A stretch of DNA of 64,000 nt from Salinicola sp. Its GTDB lineage: Bacteria > Pseudomonadota > Gammaproteobacteria > Pseudomonadales > Halomonadaceae. The translations under genes and the position numbers were made by a program. Each line of letters starts with the position of its first letter. Within the stretch, counting starts at the first letter, position 1. The notes under the pieces are model-generated. The model saw only the letters and a program-made list of their open reading frames with translations, ran no database searches and was not told the origin of the DNA. The DNA lies in contig NZNW01000044.1 of the NCBI GenBank assembly GCA_002695065.1, positions 1 through 64,000 of the forward strand. Direction: 5' to 3'. Positions 55,950 to 58,698 of this stretch are shown here, piece by piece.

Positions 55950-57020
55950 TCAGCGCGGCTGGCGCAGACGTTCGGCCGTTCGCGTCAGCAGGCTGTCGGT
56001 CGCCTCCCAGCCCAGGCAGGCATCGGTGATCGAGACCCCGTAGCGCAGGGCGGCCAGATTCAGCGGCTGCTTGCCCTCGAAGAGGTGGCTTTCGAGCATC
56101 ACGCCGATCAGGCTGCGGTCACCAGCCAGCCGCTGCTCCAGCACGTCGTAGAGGACCTCGGTCTGACGTCGATGATCCTTGTGCGAGTTGGCATGACTGC
56201 AGTCGACCATGATCCTCGCCTCGAGCCCCGCCTGCGACATCGCCCGGCGACTGGCGGCAACGCTGTCCGCATCATGGTTGGGCCCGCTCAGGCCGCCGCG
56301 CAGCACCAGATGGGTGAAGGGGTTGCCCGGGGTCTCGATCATCGCCGGCGTGCCCTCGGCAGTGACCCCGAAGTGGCGGTGCGGGTGCGCCGCCGACTGC
56401 ATCGCCGCCACCGCCACGTCGACATTGCCCTGGGTGCCGTTCTTGAAGCCGACACAGGCGTCGAGCCCGCTGGCCAGTTCGCGGTGGATCTGCGACTCGG
56501 TGGTGCGCGCCCCGATCGCCACCCAGCTCAGCAGGTCGTCGAAATAGGTGGCCGCCATCGGCTGCAGCAGCTCCGTCGCTACCGGCAGGCCCAATTCGGC
56601 GATATCCCGCATGAGTCGTCTCGCCATGGCCAGGCCCGCTGCCATGTCGTCGCTGCCGTCGAGATGGGGATCGTAGGCCATGCCCTTCCAGCCGACCGTC
56701 GTGCGCGGTTTTTCCACATACACTCGCATCACCAGCAGCAACCGGTCGCCCACCACCTTGTCGAGCGCTGCCAGGCGCTCGGCGTACTCCAGCGCGGCAA
56801 CGGGGTCGTGGACGGAGCAGGGTCCGGTCACCACCAGCAGGCGGTCGTCCTCACCGTCGAGAATGGCGCGGATCGCCTGCCGACTCGCGGCGATCTGCCT
56901 GGCGAGCGTGGCGCTCAATGGCATGCGCTGGCGCAGCTCTTGCGCCGATGGCAAGGGCAGCGGTCTCGCCGGCCCCGGTTTCGATGGGGTCGGTTTCAGC
57001 ATGGAGGTAGCAGCGTCCAT
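55950..57020 (-). CDS. aroG: Phospho-2-dehydro-3-deoxyheptonate aldolase (DAHP synthase, AroFGH type)
   Basis: Class I DAHP synthase of 356 residues joining PEP and erythrose 4-phosphate, the entry step of the shikimate pathway. Signature blocks are VVTGPCSVHDPVAALEYAER, MRVYVEKPRTTVGWKG, WVAIGARTTESQIHRELASG and VGFKNGTQGNVDVAV. IMVDCSHANSHKD near the end supplies metal and PEP ligands, and GVMLESHLFEGKQ follows. Which of Phe, Tyr or Trp inhibits it cannot be read safely, so the symbol is by family. The 437-base upstream region has a promoter, an aromatic-rich leader peptide and a strong hairpin, pointing to attenuation. Confidence 0.93.
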   Translation of the reverse strand: MDAATSMLKPTPSKPGPARPLPLPSAQELRQRMPLSATLARQIAASRQAIRAILDGEDDRLLVVTGPCSVHDPVAALEYAERLAALDKVVGDRLLLVMRVYVEKPRTTVGWKGMAYDPHLDGSDDMAAGLAMARRLMRDIAELGLPVATELLQPMAATYFDDLLSWVAIGARTTESQIHRELASGLDACVGFKNGTQGNVDVAVAAMQSAAHPHRHFGVTAEGTPAMIETPGNPFTHLVLRGGLSGPNHDADSVAASRRAMSQAGLEARIMVDCSHANSHKDHRRQTEVLYDVLEQRLAGDRSLIGVMLESHLFEGKQPLNLAALRYGVSITDACLGWEATDSLLTRTAERLRQPR

Positions 57021-57069
57021 AACGATCTCTTTTCATGATTGTGTTTCAAGGTTGAGACCCGAAACGCGA

Positions 57070-57102
57070 GAACCCCCGGATGGGGCTGCCATCCGGGGGT
57101 TC
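57070..57102 (-). promoter_or_regulatory. Attenuator-like hairpin before aroG
   Basis: GAACCCCCGGATGG pairs perfectly (14 bp) with CCATCCGGGGGTTC around a five-base loop, 49 bases before aroG. The T-run that follows on the minus strand is weak (TTCTCGCGTTTC). Upstream, GGGCTGCC (minus strand of 57115-57122) can pair with GGCAGCCC inside the hairpin, and GGCGTGCC in the leader coding region (57170-57177) can pair with GGCACGCC (57130-57137). Alternative folds are therefore available. Confidence 0.75.
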
Positions 57103-57150
57103 TTGATGCGAGGAGGCAGCCCAGGTCCGGGCGTGCCTCGCGGGTTCAGG

Positions 57151-57219
57151 TCATGTCGACCAACCGGCGGGCACGCCAGTCCTAAACCAATAGCCATAAC
57201 CGAAGAACGCAGACGCCAT
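57151..57219 (-). CDS. Aromatic-rich leader peptide of aroG (22 codons)
   Basis: A short frame starting at ATG 57219 encodes 22 residues whose centre reads FFGYGYWF, with another Trp near the end and a TGA stop at 57151. Seven of 22 residues are Phe, Tyr or Trp, all three kinds, which is highly unlikely by chance in such GC-rich DNA. The stop lies about 50 bases before the attenuator-like hairpin. This is the layout of a ribosome-mediated attenuator in which charged aromatic tRNAs control read-through into aroG. A ribosome-binding site is weak (GTTGGCG), which is common for such leaders. Function is inferred; the peptide itself is read directly from the sequence. Confidence 0.82.
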   Translation of the reverse strand: MASAFFGYGYWFRTGVPAGWST

Positions 57220-57325
57220 CGCATCGCCAACCGTGTCGGCAATGTCGATGAGAGCTGTATCGTGGCGTTCGGTCATGTCGCTTTCCGCTTTCTCGCAAAC
57301 GTGCTGTGCATGAAGTGGTGGCTCT

Positions 57326-57353
57326 ATCCTAACGTGGCGACACGGTTTGACAA
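57326..57353 (-). promoter_or_regulatory. Predicted promoter of the aroG leader
   Basis: On the minus strand TTGTCA and TAGGAT are separated by 16 bases, placing a transcript start roughly 100 bases before the leader peptide ATG. Confidence 0.6.
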
Positions 57354-57457: not shown

Positions 57458-58012
57458 ATGGCCTACCCGCCTCATGACGTATTGATCGACAATCTCCAGG
57501 CTTGCGCCCGCGGCGATGGTCCTGCCTTCGAAAAGCTCTACCGTGCGACCAGCCCGCATCTGTATGCGCAGTTGCTGCGTATCGTCAGGCAGGAAGCAGC
57601 GGCTCAGGACTGTCTGCAACTAGTATACCTTCGCGTGTGGCAGGTGGCCGGCCAGTACGACGCCGGTCGTGCCCGGCCGATGACCTGGCTCTCGACGCTC
57701 ACGCGTAACATCGGTATCGACTGGCTCAGGCGCCAGCGGCCGCAGGAGGCCGACGGTGACGCCATCATCGAGACGCTGCCGGGCGAATCGGACGTGGAGA
57801 GCGAGAGCGATATCAATCAACAGGCGGAGTCGCTCCAGCTCTGCTTGACCGAATTGACGACGCAGCAGCGCCAGGCCCTCGAGCTCGCATTTTTCGAGGG
57901 CCTGACCCATCACGATCTGGCATCGCACCTGGGCACGCCGCTGGGCACCGTCAAGAGTTGGGTCCGAAGAGGCCTCGAGAGGTTGAAAGCATGCATGACA
58001 CGTTTCGCCTGA
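57458..58012 (+). CDS. ECF-type sigma factor (SigK-like)
   Basis: Extracytoplasmic-function sigma factor of 184 residues. Region 2 is FEKLYRATSPHLYAQLLRIV through VYLRVWQVAGQYDAGRARPM and TWLSTLTRNIGIDWLRR. Region 4 is TTQQRQALELAFFEGLTHHD and LGTPLGTVKSWVRRGLERL. The ATG at 57458 was chosen because AAAGGA lies seven bases upstream; a longer in-frame reading starting at 57347 has no family similarity. Its gene overlaps the anti-sigma gene, so the pair is co-translated. The inducing signal is unknown. Confidence 0.93.
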   Translation: MAYPPHDVLIDNLQACARGDGPAFEKLYRATSPHLYAQLLRIVRQEAAAQDCLQLVYLRVWQVAGQYDAGRARPMTWLSTLTRNIGIDWLRRQRPQEADGDAIIETLPGESDVESESDINQQAESLQLCLTELTTQQRQALELAFFEGLTHHDLASHLGTPLGTVKSWVRRGLERLKACMTRFA

Positions 58013-58698
58013 CCGATCCCGAGGAGCGCGAGATGGCTGCAGGCGAATACGTCCTCGGCACCCTGACGGGCGACCAGCGCGCCGAATTCGAGGCCCTGCT
58101 GGCGGTCAGCGCGGATCTCCAGCACAGCGTCGAAGCCTGGCGGGAACGACTGCAGCTCTTCAACCAGCAACTGGAGCCCGTCGCCCCCCCCAAGGGTGTC
58201 TGGCCGGGTATCGTGACGCGTCTGGGGCTGAAGACGGGGCCATTGCAACGGCTGGGTTTCTGGCGTGCGTTCAGCGGCATCGCCACGGCAGCGGCGCTGA
58301 TCCTGGCGATCGTCGCGCTGGTGCCGCGGGAACCGGCCATGATGCCGGGTGAGTACGTGTTCGTGATCAACCAGCCCAACGGCCAGACGGCCTGGATTCT
58401 GAACGCGACGCTGAACGGCAAGATGATGGTGCAGGCGGTGTCGCCGGAACCGATGCCGGAGGGCAAGGGCGGTGAACTGTGGATGATGGAGAACGGAACG
58501 CCGGTCTCCCTGGGCATGCTTCCCACGCAGGGTGAGGCGACCATGCAGCTGCCCGCCAAGATGCTGGGGCTGATGAAGACCGCCGATTTCGCCGTGAGCA
58601 TGGAACCCAGCGCCGGTGCGCCCGGCGGAAAACCCTCGGGGCCGGTGATCGACGAGGGCAAGCTCGTCCAGATCCGCAATCCGACGGTATCGTTGTAG
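57991..58698 (+). CDS. RskA-family anti-sigma factor
   Basis: Membrane-bound regulator of 235 residues that should hold the preceding sigma factor inactive. The N-terminal cytoplasmic domain reads EREMAAGEYVLGTLTGDQRA, followed by one membrane helix (WRAFSGIATAAALILAIVAL) near residue 95. The periplasmic RskA domain contains YVFVINQPNGQTAWILNAT, GKGGELWMMENGTPVSLGM and FAVSMEPSAGAPGGKPSGPV. No zinc-binding HxxxCxxC set is seen. The ATG at 57991 lies inside the sigma gene in another frame, a 22-base overlap. Confidence 0.9.
   Translation: MHDTFRLTDPEEREMAAGEYVLGTLTGDQRAEFEALLAVSADLQHSVEAWRERLQLFNQQLEPVAPPKGVWPGIVTRLGLKTGPLQRLGFWRAFSGIATAAALILAIVALVPREPAMMPGEYVFVINQPNGQTAWILNATLNGKMMVQAVSPEPMPEGKGGELWMMENGTPVSLGMLPTQGEATMQLPAKMLGLMKTADFAVSMEPSAGAPGGKPSGPVIDEGKLVQIRNPTVSL

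Follow-up and report, generated by a model that had tools for sequence, protein, structure and literature searches.

A putative leader-peptide attenuator carrying codons for phenylalanine, tyrosine and tryptophan ahead of a DAHP synthase gene in Salinicola, and its kinship with Pseudomonas sRNA P15

Results

Organization of the region upstream of the DAHP synthase gene

The locus described here lies in a 64,000-nucleotide stretch of a Salinicola sp. genome (contig NZNW01000044.1), called the window throughout. A gene for a type I DAHP synthase is found on the minus strand, preceded, in order toward the synthase, by a promoter-like site, a 41-codon frame and five segments (A to E) that can pair in alternative ways. 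The features, with the basis for each, are as follows:

57326-57353, minus strand: promoter-like site TTGTCA-16-TAGGAT (sequence scan and genus alignment)
57151-57276, minus strand: leader peptide frame of 41 codons plus TGA, MTERHDTALIDIADTVGDAMASAFFGYGYWFRTGVPAGWST (open reading frame; ATG column invariant in 18/18 genus members)
57073-57208, minus strand: match to Pseudomonas sRNA P15 (RF00627), 29.2 bits, under the family cut-off of 70 (Rfam model, permissive threshold)
57184-57207, minus strand: aromatic codon run F F G Y G Y W F, codons 24-31 (translation of the frame)
57170-57177, minus strand: segment A, GGCGTGCC, inside the frame, pairs with B (A:B 97.7% of cells paired, 4/8 pairs changed on both sides)
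57129-57137, minus strand: segment B, GGCACGCCC, partner of A or C; GGCACGCC is 57137-57130 (pairing alignment)
57115-57122, minus strand: segment C, GGGCTGCC, partner of B or D (pairing alignment)
57083-57102, minus strand: segment D, 5' arm of the putative terminator hairpin (57102-57089) and its loop; the C-pairing GGCAGCCC is 57090-57083 (pairing alignment)
57070-57083, minus strand: segment E, 3' arm of the same hairpin, ending in GGGGGTTC, then TCGCGTTT, a weak T-run (D:E -28.3 kcal/mol)
55950-57020, minus strand: type I DAHP synthase (aroF/G/H family), 356 aa, the inferred regulated gene (TIGR00034 445 bits, PF00793 264 bits)

The frame, which ends in MASAFFGYGYWFRTGVPAGWST, encodes FFGYGYWF at codons 24-31 and a further Trp at codon 39, downstream of the run, confirming what a sequence-only reading of this DNA had reported upstream of the synthase. 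The 22-codon frame given in that reading begins at an internal ATG (57219) and corresponds to the 3' part of the 41-codon frame; since the ATG at 57276 is invariant in 18/18 same-genus sequences and the one at 57219 occurs in 7/18, the leader was taken to have 41 codons. The perfect 14-bp hairpin described after the frame is present (57102-57070), as are the two pairs of complementary segments, GGCGTGCC with GGCACGCC and GGGCTGCC with GGCAGCCC. The -35 TTG and the -10 TAnGAT are retained in 18/18 same-genus sequences of the genus alignment. The reading had also considered that transcripts might start downstream of the leader; the predicted promoter-like site is upstream of it in 18/18 genus members.

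An inverted repeat (CACGGTTTG / CAAACCGTG, window 57371-57342) covers the -35 region of the promoter-like site. It was tried as an operator and dropped, as it is not conserved in the genus. A genome with a leader of a different subgroup (G112) has this repeat too, and the sharing suggests recombination of the promoter region. Beyond it, an ECF-type sigma factor, together with an anti-sigma protein that has an RskA C-terminal domain, is encoded divergently in the window (57458-58698, plus strand).

Conservation of the leader in the family

A search with the 41-residue peptide in 250 genomes of the window's family gave matches in 131 genomes at E ≤1, and a DAHP synthase gene adjoined the match in 30/30 loci inspected. 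To avoid the bias of a peptide-first search, an enzyme-first search was carried out in 111 family genomes. The synthases formed two groups, 93 orthologues of the window's enzyme (one per genome, E ≤1e-121) and a second copy of about 53% identity. The leader motif, written after seeing the sequences, was defined as a run ending in YWF, YWRWF or YGYF at most 16 residues from the stop, 80-520 nt before the gene. It was present once in each of the 93 orthologous upstream regions (93/93), and in 106/106 when 13 further loci found by their leader were included. The same motif was found in 0/106 regions on the antisense strand and in 5/2120 of the 2-mer shuffles; the strict motif was also absent upstream of 20 chosen second-paralogue synthases (0/20) and of the next-scoring synthases chosen in the order (0/20) and in the class (0/20). 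The presence of the leader is not attributable to chance.

Phe, Trp and Tyr all occur among the last ten codons in 106/106 leaders, with 4 to 8 aromatic residues in those ten, and the frame is open in all 106, its aromatic content being kept while the Tyr and Phe codons vary. In named loci (mostly Pseudomonas), the in-frame synonymous share in the 5' part of the first leader was 0.47, the out-of-frame values being 0.23 and 0.28; in the leaders of the window's family it was 0.35 against 0.25 and 0.32, a small excess; the pairs behind all the synonymous shares given here are not independent and the figures are descriptive.

Alternative pairings and their covariation

The leader region folds better than 200/200 shuffles (z = -6.96). 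Calculated energies were -32.5 kcal/mol for A:B, -13.4 for B:C, -19.2 for C:D and -28.3 for D:E, and the stop codon (57153-57151) is located between A and B, 16 nt before B. A:B excludes B:C, B:C excludes C:D, and C:D excludes D:E, forming a chain of alternatives whose end state would be set by whether A is free.

Covariation was evaluated in an alignment (A1) of 57 of the 106 leaders, 58 having passed a filter at >95% similarity and L077 being omitted for its incomplete cut. For A:B plus D:E, 94.9% of the cells are paired, 15 pairs are changed on both sides against 6.9 in shuffles (0/500 as high), and doubly changed cells number 117 against 27.7. C:D is paired in 92.5% of cells, with 26 doubly changed cells against 8.1 in shuffles (0/500), and with 4 pairs changed on both sides against 2.2 (32/500 shuffles). 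When the partners are shifted by 1-3 columns the pairing is lost, both for A:B plus D:E and for C:D. B:C is paired in 92.4% of cells, but a single pair accounts for 17 of the 20 doubly changed cells, and in further pair types 106/500 shuffles do as well. A B:C hairpin is likewise contained in the Rfam consensus structure of P15. A:B, C:D and D:E covary strongly, and B:C weakly. The covarying C:D and D:E helices indicate mutually exclusive antiterminator and terminator helices at the leader. Relatives were compared, as the sequence-only reading had proposed, and they retain both the reading frame and the pairing.

Minimum-energy folding, tried with the ribosome at 14 positions, failed to separate the switch states: RNA made up to D gave C:D at all 14 positions, and the full RNA gave D:E at all 14. 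Since equilibrium folding yields no switch, the choice between the states would have to be kinetic. The sequence TATTGGTTTA (57184-57186; A1 columns 7-16) is conserved at the nucleotide level beyond codon demand. The final Phe codon in it is TTT throughout and is followed by a conserved A, and TTTA recurs in the second leader described below.

The weakness of the T-run, already remarked on from the sequence, is real, with 2-4 T in the eight nucleotides after the G run in 18/18 genus members. The 88 family members outside the genus have 3-8, and 59/88 have at least five. TTTTGT or alike is usual after the hairpin in the Pseudomonas set. A terminator scan gave zero sites in the leader region of the window, and 49 nt separate the end of the hairpin from the start codon (57070 to 57020), so that the ribosome site is left uncovered by it. 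Intrinsic termination appears clear in many relatives and is doubtful in the window's genus.

Relationship with Pseudomonas sRNA P15

Rfam models applied at the gathering threshold, riboswitch and T-box models included, gave zero matches in the window. At a permissive threshold the leader region aligned with P15 end to end, missing the P15 cut-off by 41 bits, and P15 was matched at 8/8 loci tried, spanning the leader codons, the pairing segments and the hairpin. At E values up to 1, the Rfam hits at the 8 loci were confined to P15, P37 and a single miRNA model; a weak match to nhaA-I (E 0.045, under cut-off) lay in another part of L116. The element, called unannotated in the sequence-only reading, is thus already described in part, as its Pseudomonas homologue is catalogued as 'sRNA P15'. 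P15 was reportedly detected by Northern blots by Livny in 2006, and we know of no function assigned to it. Its DAHP synthase neighbour was reportedly noted as well.

The P15 model found matches in 25 of 194 genomes of the order, above the cut-off in 10. The 12 strongest places outside the window's family, in families f21 and f43, all precede a DAHP synthase 59-69% identical to the window's (12/12); a leader with GYWFS is found in every one and a second leader in 9/12. Three weak places (L132, L133 and L135; E about 0.03) had no synthase. A scan of named genomes with a P15-core pattern gave at least 80 loci (at least 119 stretches), mostly from Pseudomonas, with Stutzerimonas, an Alcanivorax bin and an unclassified gammaproteobacterial bin, P. 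aeruginosa itself being absent from the 80. A DAHP synthase gene lies within 900 nt downstream in 76 of these 80 loci, and the remaining four end first.

A model built only from the window's family (R1), searched without reference to the enzyme, recovered the same 12 strong P15 places at E 2.3e-15 or better. All 29 R1 loci whose surroundings were read (L320-L348; 27 at E <1e-6 and two more up to 3e-5; seven in the window's family and 22 outside) sit immediately ahead of a DAHP synthase gene in the same orientation (29/29); further R1 matches include G033:C44:246061 (1.3e-6), G291:C24:54140 (5.6e-6) and G341:C1:5460748 (8.2e-5). Among the places matched by R1 are seven in family f20, with leaders that read FFWWFGYGFYFS or nearly so, and, at weaker scores, places in three other families. 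In the class, the only strong match was L350 from another order (3e-15), which precedes a DAHP synthase and has the leader MYFYGYWFSRYGV; L349 (8.9e-5) and 16 weak class loci (L351-L366; 1.7e-4 and weaker) had no synthase and were taken as background.

Since the model from the family alone matches the same 12/12 strong P15 places, and the same gene is found downstream, we conclude from these sequence comparisons that P15 and the window's element are one homologous cis element. Common to both are the site before a type I DAHP synthase, the GGTATTGGTTTAG core, the pairing segments and the hairpin, while P15 is filed as an sRNA gene and the window's element scores below the P15 cut-off of 70. P15 is probably a terminated leader and not a free-standing sRNA gene.

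Other aromatic-rich frames were seen upstream of DAHP synthases. In family f20 (L130, L131, L134, L162, L163, L166 and L339-L345), found by R1, a single leader, FFWWFGYGFYFS or similar, with a terminator precedes the synthase; three of the next-scoring copies chosen in the order carry the aromatic leader FFWWFGYGFYFS. Two aromatic leaders, CVFFGWFGYGYFCQYPGRR and SWWYAFGICWRFYRY, precede the synthase of L348 (genome G286), which shares only 52% identity with the window's enzyme. In L196, from a genome (G526) of another order in the class, the DAHP synthase gene is preceded by the leader MQSRNFFAFYFWFSVPGGREARL and by a hairpin with eight T after it, possibly an independent aromatic attenuator. 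Among the 20 second-paralogue copies, L150 has a frame rich in aromatic codons but without the strict motif, and a Trp/Arg-rich frame in a class copy (L192) was taken for chance.

A second leader and a pseudoknot close to the gene

A second frame with Trp-Arg-Phe (..WRF..) is found close to the gene in 78/106 family copies, and in 75 of 76 evaluable named loci, mostly from Pseudomonas; the WRF motif was written after looking at the sequences. Two examples from family loci, both upstream of the synthase, are:

L042:164-294, minus strand: second leader
L089:540-649, plus strand: second leader

Its stop falls between 17 nt inside and 45 nt before the chosen start codon, with an ATGA overlap in 12. 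An alignment (A2) was made of 53 of the 78 second leaders, 56 having passed the >95% filter and three near-duplicates being removed by hand. The nucleotides TGGCGATTTA are invariant in these 53 sequences, which were themselves picked by those three amino acids. Six nucleotides past TGGCGATTTAGC there is an H-type pseudoknot with stems of 7 and 6 bp; in 50/78 copies its loops measure 8, 1 and 10 nt. Both crossing stems covary, with 96.2% of cells paired, 9/13 pairs changed on both sides against 4.1 in shuffles, and 45 doubly changed cells against 6.6 (0/500). Some of the f21 loci have a shorter second frame, and inspection by eye showed no such pseudoknot in them. In the codons before the second-leader Trp, the synonymous share is protein-like in Pseudomonas (0.56 in frame against 0.22 and 0.36) and less so in the window's family (0.39 against 0.32 and 0.25); the codons after the pseudoknot are without protein-like signal (0.23 against 0.27 and 0.33).

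The 28 copies without the second leader include all those of the window's genus (18/18), three of genus g19 and seven others, among which G013 has WRY instead of WRF. Because the second leader occurs in two other families, f21 and f43, its loss in the window's genus appears the simpler reading.

Two further ideas on the second leader were rejected. Its CACCTCC was considered as an anti-Shine-Dalgarno sequence hiding the gene's ribosome site; C[AG]CCTC[CT] is present in 60/78 second leaders, but the longest helix it can form with that site does not exceed what shuffled sites give (on average a share of 0.47 of the shuffles does as well; 14/78 at ≤0.1). A fusion to the enzyme by programmed frameshifting at CGATTTAGC, ahead of the pseudoknot, was rejected by reasoning, as the TGG-to-start distance varies modulo 3 and there is no conserved fusion.

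Discussion

The conserved frame, the codons for all three aromatic amino acids and the covarying alternative pairings support the interpretation as an aromatic attenuator first advanced from the sequence. We regard it as very probable that the element controls the DAHP synthase gene by ribosome-mediated transcription attenuation, in response to aromatic shortage. The leader peptide, with its clustered Phe, Tyr and Trp codons, would be translated while RNA polymerase makes the leader. When charged aromatic tRNA is scarce, the ribosome would stall on the run just upstream of segment A and leave A free to form A:B, whereupon C:D would form, the D:E terminator would be blocked and the gene would be transcribed. 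When aromatic tRNAs are plentiful, the ribosome would reach the stop codon between A and B, A:B would be blocked, B:C would form, D would be free for E and transcription would end before the gene. The polarity, the stalling, the termination and the set of amino acids that count are all inferred. A ribosome with any of codons 24-29 in its A site leaves segment A free, and one at the stop codon separates A from B, which predicts read-through on starvation; under the footprint assumed, a ribosome halted at Trp30 or Phe31 would itself overlap segment A by 2 or 5 nt.

Enterobacterial trpL, pheL and his leaders make a ribosome-mediated choice between antiterminator and terminator, each responding to one amino acid. 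In the trp leader, the stalled ribosome covers the first pairing segment, whereas here a stall would leave the first segment free, and one more segment restores the sense of the response.

The weak T-run raises the question of how the leader acts in the window's genus. With the same leader and the same sensing, the outcome there could be Rho-dependent termination or a translational effect, as the sequence-only reading had already suggested, the T-run having decayed, as the 2-4 T of all 18 genus members and the empty terminator scan would allow. We consider this unlikely, given that the GC-rich D:E stem keeps covarying in the family, that the hairpin, 49 nt ahead of the start codon, leaves the ribosome site uncovered, and that two thirds of the relatives with the same leader (59/88) have five or more T. 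An action in trans seems more improbable still: P15 and its homologues, or the peptide, would be products of termination with targets elsewhere, in line with the cataloguing of P15 as an sRNA and with the released attenuator RNAs and peptides that act in trans in rhizobia. The constant site before the same gene (76/80 and 29/29 loci) and the terminator-alternative pairing need no trans target, although P15 homologues may have a second, trans role besides cis control. It is hardly credible that the region is a conserved structured 5' RNA, such as a riboswitch or a stability element, with an incidental frame and no translation-based regulation. Such an RNA would fit the strong fold and the nucleotide conservation of TATTGGTTTA, but the frame is open in every one of the 106 leaders with its aromatics kept despite varying Tyr and Phe codons, Rfam gives zero gathering-score matches in the window, and the Pseudomonas set has an in-frame synonymous excess.

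Regarding the signal read by the putative attenuator, we lean toward control by all three amino acids and not by a subset, as judged from the codons alone. The competing idea, that the leader effectively responds to a single amino acid, for instance Tyr or Phe, and that the remaining aromatic codons play no part in sensing, is a lesser possibility that deserves attention, since stalls at F24, F25, Y27 and Y29 leave segment A free and those at W30 and F31 overlap it, and the aroF leader of C. glutamicum is reported to respond to Phe and not to Tyr (PMC11802643). Against it, Phe, Tyr and Trp are all retained in 106/106 leaders of otherwise variable sequence. Other regulators were also sought in the genome. 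A TrpR search gave zero matches, with E. coli matching as control, while one TyrR-type helix-turn-helix place, in an open frame of 506 codons, was above cut-off; on this basis, a TyrR- or PhhR-like regulator may act besides the leader.

Taking the two leaders together, we give even weight for and against a joint reading in which Pseudomonas, the window's family and related families share an ancestral series of two leaders. The upstream P15 attenuator would sense Phe, Tyr and Trp, and the downstream leader, a Tyr-rich run ending in Trp-Arg-Phe that in the window's family stands 6 nt before the H-type pseudoknot, would act post-transcriptionally on translation of the enzyme. The window's genus would have lost the second leader, and 'sRNA P15' would be the terminated product of the first.

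Leader peptides of DAHP synthase genes are already known as a kind, from Corynebacterium and Acholeplasma. In C. glutamicum, the aroR leader of aroF is reported to have a Phe-Tyr-Phe run (PMC4046766, PMC11802643). It shares with the present element an aromatic-codon leader peptide before DAHP synthase and transcription attenuation, and differs in that run, in its lineage and in its response to Phe. The uORFC-13-1 motif of Acholeplasma aroF is a proposed leader with a U run coding for at least one Phe, represented by 24 sequences from Acholeplasma and environmental DNA only (PMC8632094); it has in common with our element a uORF and an intrinsic terminator before DAHP synthase, and differs by its U run and restricted distribution. 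In the titles and abstract openings covered, mainly from non-subscription literature, none ties P15 or the Pseudomonas or Halomonas DAHP synthase to a leader peptide; the parts available of PMC4263517 and PMC7857532 name PA1750 without mentioning a leader, and those of PMC3460626 mention 13 Rfam leaders. As far as the literature listings show, four points are new: the occurrence in this lineage, the combination of Phe, Tyr and Trp codons, the link with P15, and a second leader placed in series.

If the attenuator reading and the joint series hold, a Pseudomonas RNA catalogued as an sRNA would gain a function, the shikimate entry point in a large bacterial group would be under a single leader reading all three end products, and leader peptides would be found arranged in series. 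The finding would also be relevant to engineering of aromatic production in Pseudomonas and Halomonas that uses the synthase with its native upstream region.
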